Shown: in pieces, positions 27,549 to 58,141 of the stretch | Numbering within the stretch: position 1 is the stretch's first letter | Layout of the letters: each line of letters starts with the position of its first letter | NCBI RefSeq assembly: GCF_017916255.1 | Contig: NZ_CP072827.1 | Location: 6,287,501-6,351,500, forward strand | Origin: Streptomyces mobaraensis NBRC 13819 = DSM 40847 | GTDB lineage: Bacteria > Actinomycetota > Actinomycetes > Streptomycetales > Streptomycetaceae | Direction of reading: 5' to 3' | Length of the DNA: 64,000 nt | Notes under the pieces: generated by a model | What the model was told of the DNA's origin: nothing | The model's input: the letters and a program-made list of their open reading frames with translations, nothing else | Databases searched by the model: none | Program-made: the position numbers and the translations under genes

Positions 27549-27592
27549 CGCGGCTTCGCCGCTTGTCCTCAAACGCCGGACGGGCTTGATTC
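27549..27592 (+). repeat. Streptomyces-type intergenic repeat
   Basis: A small GCGGC/GCCGC stem followed by CCTCAAACGCCGGACGGGCT. I recognise this string as a motif recurring at 3' ends of genes across Streptomyces genomes. Only one copy is obvious in this window. It marks the boundary between the hopanoid operon and the minus-strand accessory block. Confidence 0.45.
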
Positions 27593-27682: not shown

Positions 27683-28036
27683 TCAAAAGCCGGTAACGGG
27701 CTGCCCTGTCAGCGCCTGGGCGATCTGCCAGAGCTGACCGTTGCGCGACGCCTTTATGAGTACCTTGTCGCCTGGGAGAAGGATCTTTTCGAGCAGTTGT
27801 GCGGCGGTTGCGTTGTCGGCGGCCATCGCAATCTGAGGGACGCCGGCAGCACCCGCGTGGAGGACGAGCTGCTTCACCATGTCCCCGCCGACCCCGACCA
27901 CGATGTCGATGCCCAGCTCTCCCGCCATGCGTCCAATGGAGCGGTGGGCCTCCAAGGCATCGTCGCCAAGCTCGAGCATTTCGCCGAGTACGGCGATCGT
28001 CCGGCCGCCGACCGCTTTGCCGTCTGTCTCGGTCAC
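27683..28036 (-). CDS. Free-standing MurF/Mur-ligase C-terminal domain (truncated)
   Basis: A 117-aa protein matching only the last domain of MurF-like UDP-MurNAc-peptide ligases. GRTIAVLGEMLELGDDALEA is the hallmark, followed by the ADNATAAQLL and LLPGDKVLIKASRNGQLWQI segments. The ATP-binding and central domains are absent, so it cannot be a ligase alone. The GTG start at 28036 overlaps the stop of the upstream protease gene, so it is translated as part of the operon. It is either a remnant of a full ligase truncated by deletion, or a recruited partner domain of the adjacent ATP-grasp enzyme. Low-complexity codon bias does not separate these options. Confidence 0.75.
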   Translation of the reverse strand: MTETDGKAVGGRTIAVLGEMLELGDDALEAHRSIGRMAGELGIDIVVGVGGDMVKQLVLHAGAAGVPQIAMAADNATAAQLLEKILLPGDKVLIKASRNGQLWQIAQALTGQPVTGF

Positions 28037-28581
28037 GAGAGACCTCCGTCGGGTAGGGGCGCGAAGGTGATCGCGCGGCCGGTGTAGGAAGTGGAGAGGC
28101 GGCTGAGGGGGACGCGGTCGTGCGTCTGGCCCCAGGCCGACGGATCCCGAAAGAAGATGGTGGGGTCGGGTCCGTCCTCGTAGCCGCGGAGGATGACTAG
28201 GTGTCCGCCGGCGCGGCCGTCGTCCGGGAACTGCTCCGTCACAGACACAATGAGCGGGGCATCATCGAGCCGTCTCGACAGCTCTTTGGCGGGGACGGGT
28301 TCCGCGGTCGAGGGCACTCCGAGTTCGGAGGCCAGGCTCGCGATCCCCGCGTGAACCGCTCCGCGCGGGGTCAGGATTTCGTGCTTGACCGCGAGTTTCA
28401 GGAGTTCGGTCACCGTCGGCGCTGGGCGCCCGTAGGCGAGAAGGATCATCCGAAGTGACGCCAGGCCGCACGCCCGGTTGGACCACTCGATCCGGTCTCC
28501 GAGTGCCCACCCGCCGTGTAGATCCCATTCGGCGGGGTCGATGAGCTGTCGGCACATGGGCACTTCGTGGACGCGCGGCAC
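28033..28581 (-). CDS. C39-like papain-fold cysteine peptidase domain protein
   Basis: A 182-aa soluble protein with peptidase_C39_2-like organisation. The catalytic Cys38 lies in NRACGLASLRMILLAYG, the His in AGGHLVILRGYED near residue 130, and the Asp/Asn in FFRDPSAWG. No ABC transporter part is present, so it is a stand-alone protease, amidase or acyltransferase. GTG 28581 follows AGGAG that overlaps the stop of the ATP-grasp gene; its own stop overlaps the MurF-C start. In context it could process or transfer a peptide made by the ligase. An active triad looks intact; the substrate is unknown. Confidence 0.78.
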   Translation of the reverse strand: MPRVHEVPMCRQLIDPAEWDLHGGWALGDRIEWSNRACGLASLRMILLAYGRPAPTVTELLKLAVKHEILTPRGAVHAGIASLASELGVPSTAEPVPAKELSRRLDDAPLIVSVTEQFPDDGRAGGHLVILRGYEDGPDPTIFFRDPSAWGQTHDRVPLSRLSTSYTGRAITFAPLPDGGLS

Positions 28582-28593
28582 AGTGGCAGGCTC

Positions 28594-29685
28594 CTACGGC
28601 AAGACGATGGCCTCCCGAGTCGCCGTGATGCTGGAGAACACGGGAGTGGGCAGGGGGACATCGTACGGCGGTCGGGCCAGAGCCTCGTGCAACATCGCCA
28701 GAACGCAATCCGTGTGCGTGAGGCCGACCATCGCCGCTCCGACCGCGAAGTTGCTGTCACGAGACATGCCCGGCGTGCTGTTGACCTCCAGCACGTACGC
28801 GCCACCGTCATCGGTGACGATGAAGTCGATCCGGGCCGAGCCGCGCAAGCCGATTCCGTCCCACAGCGTCCGGGTGTCCCGGGCGATCCGGTTCAGCGCC
28901 ACGGGTTCCAGCTCTGCGGCCCGGACGGCGACGGTGCCCCTTGAGTCCGGGTCGAGCTTGGTGTCGGCGTCGTAGAACTCGGCTTCGGTCGCCTCGGTGG
29001 TGAGCGGAGGAAAGATCATGACGGAGCCGCCCGGGAGCTCCAGCATCCCTACGGTGACGGGAGTGCCGATGATGTAGTCCTCCACGAGTACCTCGCCGCC
29101 GCTTTCGACGGCGGCCCCCGCAAGGGCCCGGGGCAGGTCGGCCGCGTCGCGGACAAGGCTCATACCCACGCTGGACCCGCCGAAGGGCGGCTTCACCATG
29201 ACGGCTTGACTGCCCCAGTTCACCGGGCCGCCCGACCAAAGGCGCCAGCCCGGCGTGGGGACGCCGAGGGTCAGCATGACGCGCTTACAGAGGACCTTAT
29301 CGGCCGCCACCGCGGATGCCTGTACCCCGCTGCCGCAGTAGGGCACGCGCAGATAATCGAGCAGGCCCTGAAGGCGGCCGTCCTCCCCGAAGGGTCCGTG
29401 CAGGTTCGAGAGGGCCACGTCGTACGAGACCAGCTCCCTGATGAAGTCGGGCTGAGTAGGGTCCAGCACGCTCCACTGAGTCCCGATCTCTTCGAGCGCC
29501 TCACCCAGGGCGGTCACGGACCTCTGCTCGACGGGACACTTGGAGTGGTAGAGCCTGTCCTCGGCAGAGACGGGCCCGTAGATGAGGGCGACGCCGAGGC
29601 CCTGCCGGCCTCGCCCCCACCCGCGGAGCTCCTCGGCGGCGTGGTGCGCCGCCTGCCGTGAGCTGGAGTCGAGAAAGACGGTCAT
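28594..29685 (-). CDS. D-alanine-D-alanine-ligase-like ATP-grasp enzyme
   Basis: A 363-aa ATP-grasp protein related to Ddl. The N-terminal domain has SNLHGPFGEDGRLQGLLDYL and PYCGSGVQASAVAADKVLCK, as in Ddl. The ATP-binding VMVKPPFGGSSVGMSLV loop is near residue 175. The metal-binding end is ARIDFIVTDDGGAYVLEVNS followed by TPGMSRDSNF, the omega-loop-like Ddl end. It should ligate an amino acid carboxylate to an amine with ATP. An extra N-terminal segment of about 30 residues and divergence from housekeeping Ddl suggest altered substrates. ATG 29685 overlaps the dapF-like stop (ATGA). Confidence 0.85.
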   Translation of the reverse strand: MTVFLDSSSRQAAHHAAEELRGWGRGRQGLGVALIYGPVSAEDRLYHSKCPVEQRSVTALGEALEEIGTQWSVLDPTQPDFIRELVSYDVALSNLHGPFGEDGRLQGLLDYLRVPYCGSGVQASAVAADKVLCKRVMLTLGVPTPGWRLWSGGPVNWGSQAVMVKPPFGGSSVGMSLVRDAADLPRALAGAAVESGGEVLVEDYIIGTPVTVGMLELPGGSVMIFPPLTTEATEAEFYDADTKLDPDSRGTVAVRAAELEPVALNRIARDTRTLWDGIGLRGSARIDFIVTDDGGAYVLEVNSTPGMSRDSNFAVGAAMVGLTHTDCVLAMLHEALARPPYDVPLPTPVFSSITATREAIVLP

Positions 29686-30482
29686 GCGAGTACCCCTTCG
29701 AAGGTTTGGGTGACGGGCCCGCCAACCCAGGCGGCTCGGTCCGGGCGCTCGTCGTGCGGACGGACGGTCAGCGGTTCGCCGGCCTGGTTGTGGACGGTGA
29801 CCTCGCGCTTTGCGACCAGGCCACGCATGGTCGCGATGACGACGGCGGCGACTGCTCCGCTGCCGCACGAAAGCGTCTCGGCCTCGACCCCACGTTCGTA
29901 AGTGCGGATCTTGAGTGCCTGGCGGCCAAGACGCTGAACGAAGTTGACGTTGGTGCCGATCGGCGTCAGGTTCCTGTGGTGCCGGACGACACGGCCGACC
30001 ACTTCGGCGTTGACGGCGTCCACGTCGTCCACCACGGCGACGACGTGCTCCGTGCCGGTGTGCACGCTGTCGAACCATGTCGGCCGGCCGTTGATGATCG
30101 TCTGCACGACGCGGGGCTCGATGGGCCCCACTTCGGCGGTGACCCACACGGAATCGGTGTCGACGGTCGCTTCGTGCAGGACACCCGCCATGTGGAGCTG
30201 CATCGTCCGAAAGCCCTGGTCACACCGGGCCGCCCACGCCGCGCAGCGCAGCGCGTTGCCGCACATCGTCGCGATCGAGCCGTCCGCGTTGAAGCATTCG
30301 ACTTCGAGCACCGTGTGGGGGGCGCTGGCGAAGCGGCTGACGACCAGGCCGTCCGCCCCCACGCCGGTCCGCCTGGCGCAGAGACGTGCCGCTTCCTTGG
30401 GCCAGTCCGTCTGGGCGTTCAGGCGGGGGTTCGTGAAGAGGATGAAGTCGTTGCCCGCTCCGTGGATCTTGCGAAAGCGCAT
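29682..30482 (-). CDS. Diaminopimelate-epimerase-like protein (DapF paralogue)
   Basis: A 266-aa DapF-fold epimerase. RKIHGAGNDFILF opens the N-lobe; the two catalytic cysteines lie in ATMCGNALRCAAW near residue 75 and in TLSCGSGAVAAVV near residue 215, so both are kept and racemase/epimerase activity is plausible. GVGADGLV and NVNFVQ are further family marks. Housekeeping dapF is normally elsewhere next to miaA/hflX, so this is likely an accessory paralogue. ATG 30482 follows GAGGAG. As the first gene of the four-gene run, it may supply a D- or meso-amino acid to the ligase. Confidence 0.88.
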   Translation of the reverse strand: MRFRKIHGAGNDFILFTNPRLNAQTDWPKEAARLCARRTGVGADGLVVSRFASAPHTVLEVECFNADGSIATMCGNALRCAAWAARCDQGFRTMQLHMAGVLHEATVDTDSVWVTAEVGPIEPRVVQTIINGRPTWFDSVHTGTEHVVAVVDDVDAVNAEVVGRVVRHHRNLTPIGTNVNFVQRLGRQALKIRTYERGVEAETLSCGSGAVAAVVIATMRGLVAKREVTVHNQAGEPLTVRPHDERPDRAAWVGGPVTQTFEGVLA

Positions 30483-30540
30483 GGCAAAGCTCCTCGCGTG
30501 ATGGGTTGAGCCGGGTGGTGGCAACTCGGACAGGCAGCAC

Positions 30541-30786
30541 TCAGTGCCAGGTGATGGGCCGGTAAACGGTCCGCGGGGTGCGCATGACCAGCGGAGCGTG
30601 TCCGGCGAAGAGGAGAATGCGGTAGGCGGAGGTGCCGGCGGCCCGCATGTCCCGGACGCGTTGGTAGCTGCCGTTGAGGAGAACGAAATCCCCTATGCGG
30701 ACGTCCATCGGCAGCCGGGTGGCCTTCGCGGTTCCCACCGGCGGCGGGGGTTCGGAGGGCTGCTCTTTGCTGCGGCGCTTGTACAC
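30541..30786 (-). CDS. Small conserved-type protein of unknown function
   Basis: An 81-aa basic protein. GTG 30786 sits two bases before the Nudix-like gene stop region and follows GGAGGGG, so it is real and coupled. The recognisable core is MDVRIGDFVLLNGSYQRVRDM followed by a short beta-rich stretch ending PRTVYRPITWH; it may be a small beta-barrel-like domain. I recall similar short proteins near XRE regulators in Streptomyces but know no function. A 58-base gap lies between its stop and the dapF-like gene. Confidence 0.65.
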   Translation of the reverse strand: MYKRRSKEQPSEPPPPVGTAKATRLPMDVRIGDFVLLNGSYQRVRDMRAAGTSAYRILLFAGHAPLVMRTPRTVYRPITWH

Positions 30787-30787
30787 C

Positions 30788-31336
30788 TCAGCCCCTCCAG
30801 ACGTCCAGCAAGAGCATCTCCAGGCGGTGGCGGAGCGGCGCCATGTCGATCGAGGAGAGGGGCACCCAAGCCGCCGCGCCCCTTTCGATCGCCGAGGGAA
30901 AGACCGCGTCGGAGTGGGCCCGGAAGAGGTAGCGGAAGCCCACGCGAAGGCGCTGTCCGTACGCGTGCCCCCTCGGCGGGGTCACGTCGATCAGGAACGG
31001 GCCGTCGTCCGCCGGCTGCCTCCAGATGTCCCGGATGCCGACTTCCTCGGTCAGAAGACGAAGTCCGGCCTCCACGAGGGAGTTGTCCCGCTCTTCCGGC
31101 TCGGCCTCGGCCAGGGCGAAGCCCCCAGCGTGCCGCAGGCAGAGGAGGCGGTCCTGTTCGTCGGCGACGACGGCCGCGGCCATGACGAGGGGGCAGCGTT
31201 GGTTGTGGGTGCAGCCTCGACGGCGCGAGTGGTCGAGGGCTGCGTCGTACACCGGTGCCAAGATCTTTTGGTCTTCGGGGTGCAAGTGGATGTAGCGGTT
31301 GAGCTCCCGGACGATCTGGTCTTCCTGAACGCTCAC
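30788..31336 (-). CDS. Nudix-like hydrolase domain protein
   Basis: A 182-aa protein. After a helical N-terminus and CTHNQRCPLVMAAAVVADEQ, a Nudix-fold beta start (RLLCLRHAGGFAL), a degenerate Nudix box reads LVEAGLRLLTEEVGI: the EExGI end is kept but the preceding RE pair is replaced. Metal-dependent pyrophosphatase activity is therefore uncertain. The C-terminal WVPLSSIDMAPLRHRLEMLL helix is typical of the fold. GTG 31336 makes a GTGA overlap with the upstream gene. Function in this accessory block is unknown; it might sanitise or sense a nucleotide-linked intermediate. Confidence 0.65.
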   Translation of the reverse strand: MSVQEDQIVRELNRYIHLHPEDQKILAPVYDAALDHSRRRGCTHNQRCPLVMAAAVVADEQDRLLCLRHAGGFALAEAEPEERDNSLVEAGLRLLTEEVGIRDIWRQPADDGPFLIDVTPPRGHAYGQRLRVGFRYLFRAHSDAVFPSAIERGAAAWVPLSSIDMAPLRHRLEMLLLDVWRG

Positions 31337-31719
31337 GGCGCACCCAGCCCGTTGCGTTCCGTGTAAATCCACAGGAGTCGCCGGGTCAGGAGGGCCACGT
31401 CCCGCAGGTAGAGGAACGCGCCGAAGGTGGGGGTGCTGTGGGTCGGCCGGTTGTTGTAGTCGATCAGGGTGTAGCCCTTGCGAACCAGCTCTCGTACCTC
31501 TTGATCGTTGTCGGCCCCGAGCTCTTCGCAGAGCAGCAGGTTCAGATGACCGACGACGGCCGGCGTCACGCTGTCCATGGCCTCGCGGGTCGTGGTGTCC
31601 ATCCGCAAGGCGAGAGCGGACTCAGTGCGCGAGGCGATGCCCTCGATGTCGATGGGAAGACTGCCGTCGGCAGCGTCCTCGGCCATCCCCACCACCTTGC
31701 CGGTACTTGCCAAAGTCAT
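31333..31719 (-). CDS. Unknown helical protein in the dapF-like block
   Basis: A 128-aa soluble protein starting MTLASTGKVVGMAEDAADG at ATG 31719 behind GGAGGGGGCA; GTG one codon earlier is also possible. The readable core is MDSVTPAVVGHLNLLLCEELG followed by DNDQEVRELVRKGYTLIDY, and the rest is mostly helical. No catalytic motif is recognised. It is the first gene of the downstream run and its promoter region carries ACTTGCC repeats, so it is probably controlled by the XRE regulator encoded next to it. It could equally be a regulator partner. GTGA overlap with the Nudix-like gene. Confidence 0.6.
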   Translation of the reverse strand: MTLASTGKVVGMAEDAADGSLPIDIEGIASRTESALALRMDTTTREAMDSVTPAVVGHLNLLLCEELGADNDQEVRELVRKGYTLIDYNNRPTHSTPTFGAFLYLRDVALLTRRLLWIYTERNGLGAP

Positions 31720-31806
31720 CACTGCCCCCTCCGGGCAAGTTTTGAGCCGTGCCAAAGAAGCTAGGAGGGGGCCGGATGACGCTCCACGAACGTGCCGGAA
31801 CTTGCC
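31693..31806. promoter_or_regulatory. ACTTGCC-type repeats before the 31719 gene
   Basis: TTGCC/GGCAA copies at 31696, 31706, 31733 and 31799-31806 lie in or beside the start of the minus-strand gene. The same heptamer recurs three times before the 33438 gene. It is a candidate operator for the XRE protein encoded between them. Confidence 0.4.
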
Positions 31807-31812
31807 AGGCGT

Positions 31813-32658
31813 TCACCCTAGAGATTCGATGGCGGCGGTGATGAGTTCACGCGCGGCGCCACCGTAGACGGCAAGTTCAGCCAGGTCGCTGAAGGTCTTG
31901 GCATACATGGCAAGTTCGTGCTGCTGCACGACGGTGAGATGGGCTGAGACAAGCTCGACATTCACCGTCGCATCGTCGTAGAGAAAGAACCCTTCGACCG
32001 GCCAGAGTTTTGTGCGGTCTGCGTCCTGGGGGATGATGCCGATGCTCACCGATGGCAGTGCCATGGCGCTCAGGAGGTAGCCGAGTTGGCCTGCCATCAC
32101 GTCCGTGCCGCCGATGCGGTATCGCAGCACGCTTTCCTCCAGGAGGATGGCGAATTTGTGGTTCCCGTAGACGATCTTCTGTTTCTCCATGCGCACGGCG
32201 ACGGCCGCCGGCACGTCGTCGACGAGCCCGCGGCGGTCGCGAATGGAGGTGAGGAGTGCCGTGATGTATGAGGCCGTCTGTACGGGTCCAGGGATGAGCC
32301 ACGGGGAGTAGATACGGAATCGCTCAGTACGCTCCCAGAGTGGAACTACTGACTCCTGTGCCCACTTCAGGCCGTGACGCTCCATCTTGCGCCACTCGAC
32401 GTACATGCCCTCAATGCCGCGGGCTGTGGTGATGAGGTCCTCGACGTCACCCTCAGCGTCGCACGCGGTACACCAAGCGCGGAGGTCGCGCTCCGAGGGC
32501 GCACGGGTGCCGCTCTCGAAGCGTGATGCTTTCGACTCGTGCCAGCCAAGCCGGCGAGCCAGCTCTCGCTTGGTGAGATCGGCTCCCATCCGGATCTCGG
32601 CCAAGCGTCGTCCGAGAGCCTTACGGGCTTCCTGGACGCTCGAAGAGGGAGAGGCCAT
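31813..32658 (-). CDS. XRE-family transcriptional regulator with DUF5753-like sensor part
   Basis: A 281-aa regulator. Residues 10-65 form a Cro/C1-type helix-turn-helix (LTKRELARRLGWHESKASRF with ESGTRAPSERDLRAW). The rest is the DUF5753-type effector region (GMYVEWRKMERHGLKWAQES, PGPVQTASYITALL, VSIGIIPQD). Such regulators usually pair with DUF397 or DUF6879 partners; here a DUF6879 gene lies 26 bases upstream. ATG 32658 is the first Met with a matching N-terminus (MASPSSSVQEARKAL). Likely controls the flanking genes through the ACTTGCC repeats, an inference from location. Confidence 0.92.
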   Translation of the reverse strand: MASPSSSVQEARKALGRRLAEIRMGADLTKRELARRLGWHESKASRFESGTRAPSERDLRAWCTACDAEGDVEDLITTARGIEGMYVEWRKMERHGLKWAQESVVPLWERTERFRIYSPWLIPGPVQTASYITALLTSIRDRRGLVDDVPAAVAVRMEKQKIVYGNHKFAILLEESVLRYRIGGTDVMAGQLGYLLSAMALPSVSIGIIPQDADRTKLWPVEGFFLYDDATVNVELVSAHLTVVQQHELAMYAKTFSDLAELAVYGGAARELITAAIESLG

Positions 32659-32684: not shown

Positions 32685-33197
32685 TCAGGCCAACTCGAAC
32701 TGAGAGTGTGGCGTCCCCCGCTCCCACACGGCCTCGAAGGCCGCGCCGCAGAGCTTCGCCACCTCCGGGTCTTCCGTGAGTTCCATGTCCATGTTCTCGC
32801 CCTCGCCGTCGAAGTGGTTGACGAGGACGAGGTGGGAGTCGAACACCCAGAAGTCGTTACCCGGGAGTGCCAGGTCGGTTGCGCCGCGCCGTGAGAGCCA
32901 GCGCACGCTCTCCCCGGCGGCGATGTTCAGCCCGTCCGTCACGTCGTACTCGAAGCGGATGTACTCGCTGACGGGCGTCGAGACGACGCGGGCCCGTCGG
33001 ACCTCGACGCCCCGCGACACGGCGCGCGTAACGGTGGTGTGCCAGTCAGCCCAGCGCTCGGCGGGGTTGAGGGGCACGCCGGCCTTCCAGTCGATGAAGG
33101 CTGGATCCGACTTCATGTACGCGTCGCGCATCTCCAGGTGGACGGCCGTCCGCCGGCAGTCGCGGAACAGTTCCTCAAACGTTGGGGGCTGAGCCAT
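32685..33197 (-). CDS. DUF6879-family protein
   Basis: A 170-aa soluble protein. PPTFEELFRDCRRTAVHLEM at the N-terminus, the VSRGVEVRRARVVSTPVSEY strand-helix, and DFWVFDSHLVLVNHFDGEGE match the actinobacterial DUF6879 family that accompanies XRE/DUF5753 regulators. Its role is unknown; partner proteins of this type are thought to modulate the regulator. ATG 33197 lies inside the preceding small gene, with a 23-base overlap. The following XRE gene starts 26 bases downstream of its stop, so the three form one transcript. Confidence 0.82.
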   Translation of the reverse strand: MAQPPTFEELFRDCRRTAVHLEMRDAYMKSDPAFIDWKAGVPLNPAERWADWHTTVTRAVSRGVEVRRARVVSTPVSEYIRFEYDVTDGLNIAAGESVRWLSRRGATDLALPGNDFWVFDSHLVLVNHFDGEGENMDMELTEDPEVAKLCGAAFEAVWERGTPHSQFELA

Positions 33198-33438
33198 CCG
33201 TCGTCACCTCCACGTCGGCGTCCTTGGCGTGCAGTCCCATCTCCAGGAAGAACTTGACCACGCGACGGGGGATCTCCACTGCCGACTCGTGGTCGGGGAT
33301 GTCCATCTCCCCGAGACGCTCGGCGTCTTCCACCTTCCACCCCTGGACGAGGTAGGTGTCCTTCACGTCGTCGTAGTAGATGGTGGGCGAACCGCCGCTG
33401 GGGCTCTCCGGGTCCTTGCCGAGCATGATCAGGGCCAT
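33175..33438 (-). CDS. Small acidic protein, first gene of the XRE/DUF6879 unit
   Basis: An 87-aa acidic protein beginning MALIMLGKDPESPSGGSP at ATG 33438, which follows GAGGAGGAC. The middle reads PTIYYDDVKDTYLVQGWKVE and the end has EIPRRVVKFFLEMGLHAKDA. I recall similar short proteins directly upstream of DUF6879 genes, but no function. The upstream region carries three TTGCCC repeats. Overlap of 23 bases with the DUF6879 gene implies coupled translation. Could be a toxin/antitoxin-like or regulatory partner; nothing in the sequence decides this. Confidence 0.65.
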   Translation of the reverse strand: MALIMLGKDPESPSGGSPTIYYDDVKDTYLVQGWKVEDAERLGEMDIPDHESAVEIPRRVVKFFLEMGLHAKDADVEVTTDGSAPNV

Positions 33439-33477
33439 GATGTCCTCCTCGGACGCCAGTGACGATCTGTGCGCCCG

Positions 33478-33531
33478 ATCTTGCCCGCGACCGTGTCGTG
33501 GAACGAGGAACTTGCCCAAACTTGCCCGGGC
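33478..33531 (-). promoter_or_regulatory. TTGCCC triple repeat, promoter/operator of the XRE unit
   Basis: ATCTTGCCCG (33478), AACTTGCCCA (33509) and AACTTGCCCG (33519); the last two are spaced ten bases apart, one helical turn. It lies 40-93 bases upstream of the minus-strand gene at 33438. Probably the XRE binding site. Confidence 0.5.
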
Positions 33532-56610: not shown

Positions 56611-56821
56611 GGAGGACGTCCTGGGGATGAGGAGCGGCGACCGCGTCAGGTGACGGGTCACCGCGAAGTCGGTGGCTGCACCAACGCTGACGAAGCGCAT
56701 CGGGGAAGTGTGACGGCGGGGCATACGAAAGGGCCCCGCGCCCGTCGTCGCGCGCCTACTCGGTCAGCCCCCGCCACCTCGCCGGCGACGACGGCCACCT
56801 GGCCGAGCGGATCGGCACCCA
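56611..56821. other. Gap with possible gene debris
   Basis: No intact gene. On the plus strand 56755-56830 reads YSVSPRHLAGDDGHLAERIG, which looks like the start region of a DUF317-type protein, from memory only, and is cut off at once. Together with the relaxase fragment next to it this suggests a scrambled junction. The signal-peptide gene's promoter should also lie here. Confidence 0.3.
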
Positions 56822-56995
56822 CCTCACCAGCAGCGTGGTGGACCGCCACCCACCGGCAGGCTGCGTCGTCACCGTCGGGGCGATGCCGGTGGCCGCGACC
56901 ATGCGCCGGGTGATCTCCCCCCACTGCTCGTCGGAGAGGACGGGGTCCTCCGGTGCGGCACGGACCGACAGGTGCCAGACGTGCCTGGCCGGGCG
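56822..56995 (-). pseudogene. Relaxase/mobilisation-protein fragment
   Basis: Minus-strand translation gives HVWHLSVRAAPEDPVLSDEQ followed by WGEITRRMVAATGIA, and then, one frame over, PDGDDAACRWVAVHHA. This is the consecutive core of Streptomyces MobA/VirD2-like relaxases, in which the histidine strand would follow and is missing. One lost base at about 56883 explains the shift. About 60 codons remain of a gene usually of several hundred. A trace of a plasmid or integrative element. Confidence 0.5.
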
Positions 56996-57061
56996 GCGGC
57001 TCTTGCGCGGGCGTGGCGCCGCAGTTCGACCCGAGCCGGCGACGGCCGGTCGGGACGGCGC

Positions 57062-58141
57062 CTATCCCAGGTCTCGTTGTCGGGCGGAGTGCGGGTCGAT
57101 CTGGTCCCACCACCAGGCGACGGCCGGGTAGGGCAGTGGTTCGGTGGGCAGGTGCGGGGGAGGTGTGGGGGTGATGGTGACGGCGTGTCCGGGCGTGAGG
57201 TAGCGGAGGGCCTTGGCCGCGAAGGTGAGATGGCCGCTGAGTACGAGGTCGAGTCCGGCGAGGTACTGGCGTAGCTGGGGACTGGCGTGAGGGAGGATCC
57301 GGTCGCGGAGTCGGAGGTAGCAGGCCAGGGCGCGGTCGCGGATGGCAACGCCTTCGTGCATGGCCTCCTGGAGGGTCCGTCCCGGGTTGTTGTGGAGGAT
57401 GGTGTCGAACATGCTGCGTTTCGGTTGAGCGTGTGCGGATTCTTTGAAGTAGGAGTACCGCTGGTTGTCGAATACCGCGGTGGTCATGGCGGCGTCCACG
57501 GCGGCTCGGACCGGGAGGGAGGCGAGTTCCCGTTCGGGTACTTCGATGCCTTCCGCGACCTCCACGATCGGTGGGGTCGCTTCCGGGCCTCCGACGGCGT
57601 AACCGAGGGTGAGGTGTTCGTTGACCGTCATGCGGCTGTCGTGCTCGCGGACGTGGGCTTCCCAGGCTTGTCCCCACAGCCAGCGCGCCTGCCCTTTGGC
57701 GAACCGGTCGAACTGGACCGGAGTGGTGAGCTGTCGCAGACGGGACAGCGCGTCGCCGAGGGCGGCTTCGCCCGGACTGGTGTCGTCGAAAATGTGGGGT
57801 ATGCGCAGGATTTGGGTCCAGCGGGCGATGAGCCTCACGGCGTCGGTAGTGCGTACGGTGCGGTGATCGGGGACGGTGAGGTCGTTGGCGAGGAAGGCCC
57901 AGGTGTTGTAGTCGTCGAGGGCCTGGGCGAGATCTCCGGTGGCGTGGGGGAACAGGTGGGTCACCAGAGTCACGCCGGTGTGGGCGTACATGGTGTTGGC
58001 CATGTCGTCACCTGAACCGAAGTCGTAGCTCCGGACCCAGGCCAGGGTCCGCTCCACGCGTTTGTCGCCGTCAGGCCCGACTTCACCGGGGATGGGGCAG
58101 TAGAAGGTCAGGAAATCGTCGGGGACCGGGTTGAGCGTCAC
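57062..58141 (-). CDS. Terpene synthase-like protein with atypical metal motifs
   Basis: A 359-aa class I terpene-synthase-fold protein. The expected first Asp motif reads FLANDLTVPDH (ND in place of DD) near residue 90. The NSE triad is DNQRYSYFKE near residue 235, which keeps Asn, Ser and Glu but has Gln for Asp. An Arg-Tyr pair (KALRYLTPG) lies near the C-terminus. It probably cyclises a prenyl diphosphate made by the gene immediately upstream, but the unusual first motif leaves activity open. GTG 58141 follows AAGGAGGATCAGCC, 29 bases after the synthase stop. No membrane segment. Confidence 0.8.
   Translation of the reverse strand: MTLNPVPDDFLTFYCPIPGEVGPDGDKRVERTLAWVRSYDFGSGDDMANTMYAHTGVTLVTHLFPHATGDLAQALDDYNTWAFLANDLTVPDHRTVRTTDAVRLIARWTQILRIPHIFDDTSPGEAALGDALSRLRQLTTPVQFDRFAKGQARWLWGQAWEAHVREHDSRMTVNEHLTLGYAVGGPEATPPIVEVAEGIEVPERELASLPVRAAVDAAMTTAVFDNQRYSYFKESAHAQPKRSMFDTILHNNPGRTLQEAMHEGVAIRDRALACYLRLRDRILPHASPQLRQYLAGLDLVLSGHLTFAAKALRYLTPGHAVTITPTPPPHLPTEPLPYPAVAWWWDQIDPHSARQRDLG

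Follow-up and report, generated by a model that had tools for sequence, protein, structure and literature searches.

A mobile DapF-Ddl-C39-MurF-C operon of Streptomyces mobaraensis and its possible part in remodelling the D-Ala-D-Ala end of peptidoglycan

The VanC, VanE and VanG operons are regulated and mobile units that bring together a racemase, an altered D-Ala-D-Ala ligase (Ddl) and a cytosolic peptidase, with vanT, vanC and vanXY giving the order racemase, ligase, peptidase. Related enzymes also meet in the D-cycloserine cluster, where the DapF-like racemase DcsC and the Ddl DcsI are accompanied by further Dcs enzymes and an exporter. C39 peptidases in the van loci of Ktedonobacteria have already been published, where together with M15B peptidases they accompany the loss of vanX (available portion of PMC9689679), and several orders of actinobacteria have murF and GNAT genes together with van genes (available portion of PMC8698665). 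Here, we analyzed a 64,000-nucleotide stretch of Streptomyces mobaraensis NBRC 13819 = DSM 40847 (contig NZ_CP072827.1, positions 6,287,501 to 6,351,500; hereafter, the window), in which a minus-strand operon encodes a DapF-family racemase, a Ddl-like ligase, a C39-like peptidase and a lone MurF C-terminal domain (MurF-C). We propose that this operon is a mobile, van-like cassette that remodels the end of the peptidoglycan stem to D-Ala-D-X, a proposal that we consider about as probable as its opposite.

The window operon resembles the VanC/E/G operons in joining the same three kinds of protein (racemase, altered Ddl and cytosolic peptidase) within a mobile unit under regulation, and some of its relatives also carry murF. 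It differs in that a DapF-family racemase is found rather than the pyridoxal phosphate (PLP)-dependent VanT, a cysteine peptidase of the C39 type rather than the zinc M15 peptidase VanXY, and XRE/DUF6879 genes in place of VanRS, as well as in having the lone MurF-C. A Pfam scan of nine operon proteins revealed no 2-hydroxyacid dehydrogenase or alanine-racemase domain, which would be the VanH or VanT source of X, and no M15 peptidase of the VanX/VanY/VanXY type. The actinobacterial vanHAX clusters resemble the operon in that five viewed loci combine vanHAX, FemAB and murF with an adjacent C39 relative, but vanH, vanX and a VanA-family ligase are all missing from the window operon. As the tested defining van features fail, the operon is not classed as a van operon, although it may still work like one. 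The D-cycloserine cluster similarly unites a DapF-like racemase with a Ddl relative, whereas the nine scanned operon proteins include no other Dcs enzyme and no exporter. A further likeness is found in Streptomyces plasmid modules that combine murF with genes for a Ddl, a Thr/Ser dehydratase and a C39 protein. These modules thus hold a ligase, a Mur ligase and C39, in a racemase-type enzyme, ligase and peptidase order similar to that of vanT/vanC/vanXY, but their PLP enzyme is of the PALP family rather than DapF and their MurF is full-length. We found no description of these modules in the open-licence literature, nor one of any system with the composition of the window operon, in line with the initial annotation of this DNA, whose author knew of none. 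The logic that recurs is that of the van operons, namely, a source of a D-residue, an altered Ddl, a cytosolic peptidase and MurF.

The four genes follow each other closely, joined by overlaps or nearly so, as had been annotated. The genes of the DapF-family racemase/epimerase (266 amino acids (aa), 29682..30482, minus strand) and of the Ddl-like ATP-grasp ligase (363 aa, 28594..29685, minus strand) share an ATGA overlap, 12 nt separate the latter from the gene of the C39-like, papain-type peptidase (182 aa, 28033..28581, minus strand), and a GTGA overlap leads on to the gene of the lone MurF C-domain protein (117 aa, 27683..28036, minus strand). The last three proteins score above the respective Pfam cut-offs, with 93.6 bits for PF07478 (Dala_Dala_lig_C; cut-off 24), 34.9 bits for PF13529 (Peptidase_C39_2; cut-off 24) and 30.9 bits for PF02875 (Mur_ligase_C; cut-off 28.4). 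The set is not a chance assembly, as it recurs as an operon elsewhere. Our comparison considered 24 further operons of this type, 22 on chromosomal or draft contigs and two on plasmids, with L039 and L200 being one contig. Among these, dapF is full-length in 22, Ddl in 21, and C39 and MurF-C in all 24, so that the search of genomes for co-occurrence of the four families revealed a linkage that is conserved. Likewise, among 246 genomes of the genus, 11 (the own genome included) carry C39 at an identity of at least 81%, and all 11 have Ddl and MurF-C as neighbours. The two plasmid operons hold dapF, Ddl, C39 and MurF-C only, and these four genes are thus the metabolic core.

The genome, a single contig of 7.57 Mb, carries a second dapF (C1:5.596 Mb), a second ddl (5.385 Mb) and a full-length murF (2.009 Mb). 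The operon genes are thus not the essential housekeeping copies, nor are they unlinked in relatives, and the view that they have been gathered outside the housekeeping set holds. The operon separates an aminotransferase gene from a tyrosine-phosphatase-like gene by 6043 bp, while in all 18 relatives that have both genes on one contig the same pair lies 45-1206 bp apart and the operon is absent from this site; in the three of the 18 that have a wide gap and were inspected, an HTH-type gene lies in it. The operon, including its DUF6879 and XRE genes, is hence a mobile insert of about 6 kb that is found at other sites and on two plasmids. A repeat search at the insert yielded short, weak two-copy matches only and no clear target-site duplication. 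The ratio of nonsynonymous to synonymous substitution rates (dN/dS), calculated by the Nei-Gojobori method for six pairs with synonymous sites that are partly saturated, was 0.19-0.29 for MurF-C, 0.09-0.19 for C39, 0.15-0.30 for Ddl and 0.16-0.25 for DapF, pointing to purifying selection on all four core genes.

The racemase passed the DapF model TIGR00652 with 191.1 bits (cut-off 114.65), and the two catalytic cysteines that had been recognized initially are present as C74 and C206. In the DapF of Anabaena, the distal contacts to diaminopimelate (DAP) are Asn66, Asn164, Asn197, Glu215 and Arg216 (available portion of PMC12039745). Four of these five are kept in the window protein, as N65, N178, E196 and R197, while the position of Asn164, in the GNPH motif, is Thr144 (GTEH), a change conserved in more than 95% of the 120 listed DapF relatives. 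In the 2,4-diaminobutyrate (Dab) racemase PddB, Asn64, Asn157, Asn190 and Arg209 are all replaced (available portion of PMC8225329), and the pocket of the histidine racemase HisR is described without basic residues in the portion available of PMC11602996. As four of the distal contacts are kept, unlike in PddB, and given the description of the HisR pocket, it seems likelier that the substrate is DAP or a similar molecule with a second amino-acid end than a plain amino acid. The window DapF is nearer to true DapF structures (E 1.7e-31) than to the O-ureidoserine racemase 7vdy (E 5e-21). A strict search of 345 genomes of the class (E<=1e-30) recovered only the own copy; named relatives are found in Streptosporangium, Kitasatospora and Actinacidiphila.

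The ligase stays below the cut-off of each of the 25 NCBIfam ligase models listed out of 37, including those of the Van ligases, with 104 of the required 520 bits for D_ala_D_ser, 98.9 of 550 for D_ala_D_lac and 83.3 of 775 for VanA. Ddls whose only product is D-Ala-D-Ala conserve Ser150 and Tyr216 (available portion of PMC7691350). The window ligase keeps Ser150, but DdlB Tyr216 is replaced by Leu244; the genome's housekeeping Ddl has Tyr at this position. The same tyrosine is replaced in all 38 non-Van Ddl proteins encoded beside C39 (by Leu in 24, Ile in two, Arg in eight and His in four), although it should be considered that some of these rows are near-duplicates; five further Ddl-family proteins beside C39 are of the VanA type. 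Moreover, at the position that follows DdlB Ser281, the readable non-Van rows have Asn, unlike the own Ddl and the VanA-type rows. As Tyr216 has been tied to ligases making D-Ala-D-Ala only (PMC7691350), its loss argues for a changed second substrate, without indicating which one.

The annotation of the third protein as a papain-fold peptidase with a Cys38/His/Asp triad is borne out in part: Cys38 and His127 are the same in all 16 rows of an alignment, but the position of Asp146 is Asn in several relatives. The protein has no membrane or ABC-transporter part and a search of the PDB with its sequence returned nothing at E<=1. Bacteriocin-type C39 processing was considered and dismissed, there being no transporter part and no precursor gene seen. 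To view the family more widely, we considered 43 of the 44 C39 places from one genus search, the window included (G080 was left out), and found a Ddl-family gene within about 6.5 kb in 23 of them. In the C39 tree, the associations of the family fall in separate clades. Besides the window type, these are a van clade (L090, L094, L095, L099 and L187), in which C39 lies beside vanH-vanA-vanX, a vanK-like FemAB and murF, a subclade of Ddl-C39 with MurF or MurF-C (L091, L097, L101, L192 and L193) among orphans, a Ddl-PALP-C39-MurF clade, and a clade in which C39 lies beside an L-amino-acid-ligase gene (L104 and L105). Within the van clade, L187 is from a genome of another family, while the remaining loci are from Streptomyces, and in L090 both VanX and the general D_ala_D_lac model exceed their NCBIfam cut-offs. 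The plasmid modules introduced above were present in all five Streptomyces plasmid matches (H3-H7, with H3 and H4 nearly identical), with a Ddl identity of about 35% and with a MurC-like gene in three, and possibly represent a second precursor-remodelling cassette. A NUDIX gene was also seen near two of the modules L179, L180, L181, L208 and L209.

MurF-C covers positions 37-127 of the 127 of PF02875, and the N-terminal and middle (ATPase) domains are absent. The description of a lone MurF C-terminal domain should thus be narrowed, as the domain itself is incomplete, with its first strand and helix (the NDAYNANPESM region) missing. It is about 40% identical to the C-domain of the genome's full-length murF. 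Of 255 candidates of similar length, 171 belong to the stand-alone family at E<=0.001, and the 120 listed among them measure 98-138 aa; the family is present in 24 of 392 genomes of the genus (E<=1e-20). A C39 sequence lies beside it in all 23 loci other than the window, and a Ddl-family match was found within the 3.3-kb locus in 21 of these, the two exceptions being G684, where only a C-terminal Ddl remnant is left (L193), and G145, a relic. Single-protein fusions of C39 followed by MurF-C were found in three of the 120 listed C39 relatives (P0347, P0359 and P0360). Given this adjacency and the fusions, C39 and MurF-C are predicted to act together. In four genomes (G017, G046, G086 and G684), MurF-C is about 60-64% identical to that of the window, whereas C39 and Ddl are only about 25-33% identical, and the same MurF-derived piece hence serves two different ligase-peptidase backgrounds. 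Relatives were also searched for full-length Mur ligases in the position of MurF-C, and two loci have one. In L178, full-length murF directly follows C39 (74% identical) and the Ddl is a C-terminal remnant; in L091, too, full-length murF directly follows C39. That MurF-C is merely a decayed MurF remnant was ruled out by the stand-alone family, the dN/dS of 0.19-0.29 and the fusions. Most simply, MurF-C would be a binding piece for C39 that was left from an ancestral Ddl-C39-MurF module.

Taken together, the cassette would work as follows. The DapF-family enzyme, with its catalytic and distal residues kept, would make the D-centre of DAP or of a DAP-like amino acid, and the ligase, which belongs to the Ddl family but has lost Tyr216, would couple D-Ala to X, which is either this product or a D-residue related to it. 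The housekeeping MurF would then place D-Ala-D-X on UDP-MurNAc-tripeptide, as the full-length murF in modules of relatives suggests. The cytosolic C39 peptidase would clear away normal precursor or D-Ala-D-Ala dipeptide and in this way let the altered precursor predominate, and the MurF-derived C-domain would help it by binding the substrate or a partner, while XRE/DUF6879 would presumably switch the operon on. C39 would thus fill the place of VanX/VanXY in van operons, as it is the only peptidase of the operon and as C39 and M15B peptidases accompany vanX loss in Ktedonobacteria (available portion of PMC9689679). We infer both the identity of X and the peptidase activity of C39 from sequence. 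Only tentatively, and with more doubt than confidence, do we extend this to a fuller scheme of an as yet undescribed kind, in which a DAP-like D-residue comes from a cofactor-free racemase of the DapF fold and is ligated to D-Ala by a Ddl belonging to a third lineage, distinct from both the housekeeping and the Van ligases. In this scheme, a cysteine D,D-peptidase together with a stand-alone MurF piece would dispose of the normal precursor, and soil actinomycetes would thereby gain a transferable escape from D-Ala-D-Ala-directed antibiotics or peptidases. If the cassette works in this manner, the ways in which soil actinomycetes alter the D-Ala-D-Ala end exceed the D-Lac and D-Ser routes, and a DapF-type source of the D-residue joins this reservoir. 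A cysteine peptidase family so far recorded only as a hitchhiker of certain van loci would gain a role, and a stand-alone MurF piece that is kept by selection, and that some species fuse to the peptidase, would represent a new use of a Mur domain.

Several observations weigh against remodelling to D-Ala-D-X and need to be considered. The lone MurF-C cannot ligate, NCBIfam names the first gene plain DapF, such that X may be meso-DAP for another use, and the regulators belong to a type widespread in Streptomyces rather than to VanRS. Broken operons exist, with L115 and L118 lacking a full dapF, L118 and L038 lacking a full Ddl frame, and the Ddl of L114 ending slightly early. Of the 43 C39 places, 20 have no Ddl-family gene near; one of these (G145) has MurF-C only and 19 have neither Ddl nor MurF. 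Similarly, a class-wide profile search found C39 matches in 11 of 394 genomes, with Ddl or MurF near in only four (G000, G086, G351 and G497); a further one, G445, keeps a Ddl remnant. As so many C39 places have no Ddl gene near, C39 proteins either serve other ends as well or frequently remain on their own. In the vanHAX clusters, C39 occurs together with VanX and is not simply its substitute; as the two sit together there, C39 may act on another substrate in the Streptomyces clusters, e.g., UDP-MurNAc-pentapeptide. Finally, C39 relatives lie with L-amino-acid-ligase genes in L104, L105 and L108, where we also saw FemAB (L104 and L105), a PALP enzyme (L108) and an MFS gene (L104); these loci are candidate peptide-making clusters.

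The last of these loci bear on what the initial annotation had suggested, namely, that the set makes or tailors a small peptide as an antibiotic, a signal or a precursor modification. In such a case, the operon would produce a small D-amino-acid or DAP peptide (an antibiotic, metallophore or signal), the peptidase would trim a protected precursor and MurF-C would serve as carrier or docking piece. DapF-fold racemases indeed act in antibiotic and metallophore pathways, as known for the O-ureidoserine, Dab and His racemases (available portions of PMC12039745, PMC8225329 and PMC11602996), and C39 is found with Ddl-like relatives and L-amino-acid-ligase genes in L104 and L108, and alone with such a gene in L105. 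Nonetheless, the window DapF keeps all of the distal positions replaced in PddB but that of Asn157 (PMC8225329, available portion), and the operon encodes neither an exporter nor a carrier protein, nor does it hold another tailoring gene. The flanks of 14 compared loci, moreover, have no biosynthetic, exporter or tailoring gene in common. A secreted antibiotic or signal is so far unsupported for lack of such exporter and tailoring genes, and we consider a peptide product unlikely. Of the annotated options, precursor modification is favoured, as the nearest contexts of C39 relatives are vanHAX and Ddl, MurF and MurC genes.

Streptomyces walls use LL-DAP, and a DapF making meso-DAP could act on position 3 of the stem, with the remaining proteins salvaging muropeptides or D-Ala-D-Ala. 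The TIGR00652 score well over the cut-off and the four kept distal contacts of five agree with this, as do two orphan C39 genes that overlap or adjoin an alanine-aminotransferase-like gene (L092:8831-10668 and L109:8606-10424). However, a housekeeping dapF is present, the Asn-to-Thr change of GNPH is fixed in over 95% of the 120 listed relatives, and the loss of Tyr216 would not be expected for a ligase that recycles D-Ala-D-Ala, making this explanation distinctly improbable. Hardly probable at all is an accessory of mobile elements unrelated to the wall (plasmid or phage defence, or competition between strains) that reuses Mur-like enzymes for another amide: relaxase-like genes lie within the fetched stretch in seven of 22 non-plasmid loci (the Pfam Relaxase cut-off being exceeded in L112 and not in the divergent L119) and two operons are on plasmids, but the enzymes argue for amide chemistry on D-amino acids, and a PADLOC scan of 10 proteins, which yielded nothing but weak HTH matches of the regulator, rejects a known defence system.

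The operon extends beyond its core, with 10 same-strand open reading frames (ORFs) between 27683 and 33519. Upstream of dapF, an 81-aa ORF with no family match (30541..30786, minus strand) is present in most, but not all, related operons. The protein encoded at 30788..31336 (minus strand) is indeed a degenerate Nudix-like protein, its match being below the family cut-off (16.1 vs 21.1 bits) and its Nudix box reading RLLTEE, as judged against the Nudix consensus; being full-length in only 14 of the 24 related operons, it is dispensable to the operon. Next upstream is a 131-aa ORF with weak resemblance to DUF6415 (31333..31728, minus strand; E 0.11; full-length in 16 of 24). The XRE/DUF5753 transcriptional regulator (31813..32658, minus strand; PF19054, 102.6 bits; full-length in 19 of 24), presumed to regulate the operon, and the DUF6879 protein (32685..33197, minus strand; PF21806, 188.4 bits; full-length in 21 of 24), the usual partner of this XRE, lie upstream of the core on the same strand, in agreement with the annotation. 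The genome has five DUF6879 copies. A 114-aa ORF without a Pfam match (33175..33519, minus strand) stands first in the chromosomal operons and is conserved there.

Some further observations concern the surroundings and relatives of the operon. In the L184 locus of G445, two C39 genes of different clades lie in tandem, with a C-terminal Ddl remnant alone in front of them. At 56801-57106 of the window (minus strand), a relaxase-like fragment matches the relaxase encoded next to a related operon at 59% over 56 residues. Just beyond MurF-C, at 27565-27581, lies GTCCGGCGTTTGAGGAC, presumably a frequent Streptomyces intergenic motif, which occurs as a single copy within the window.

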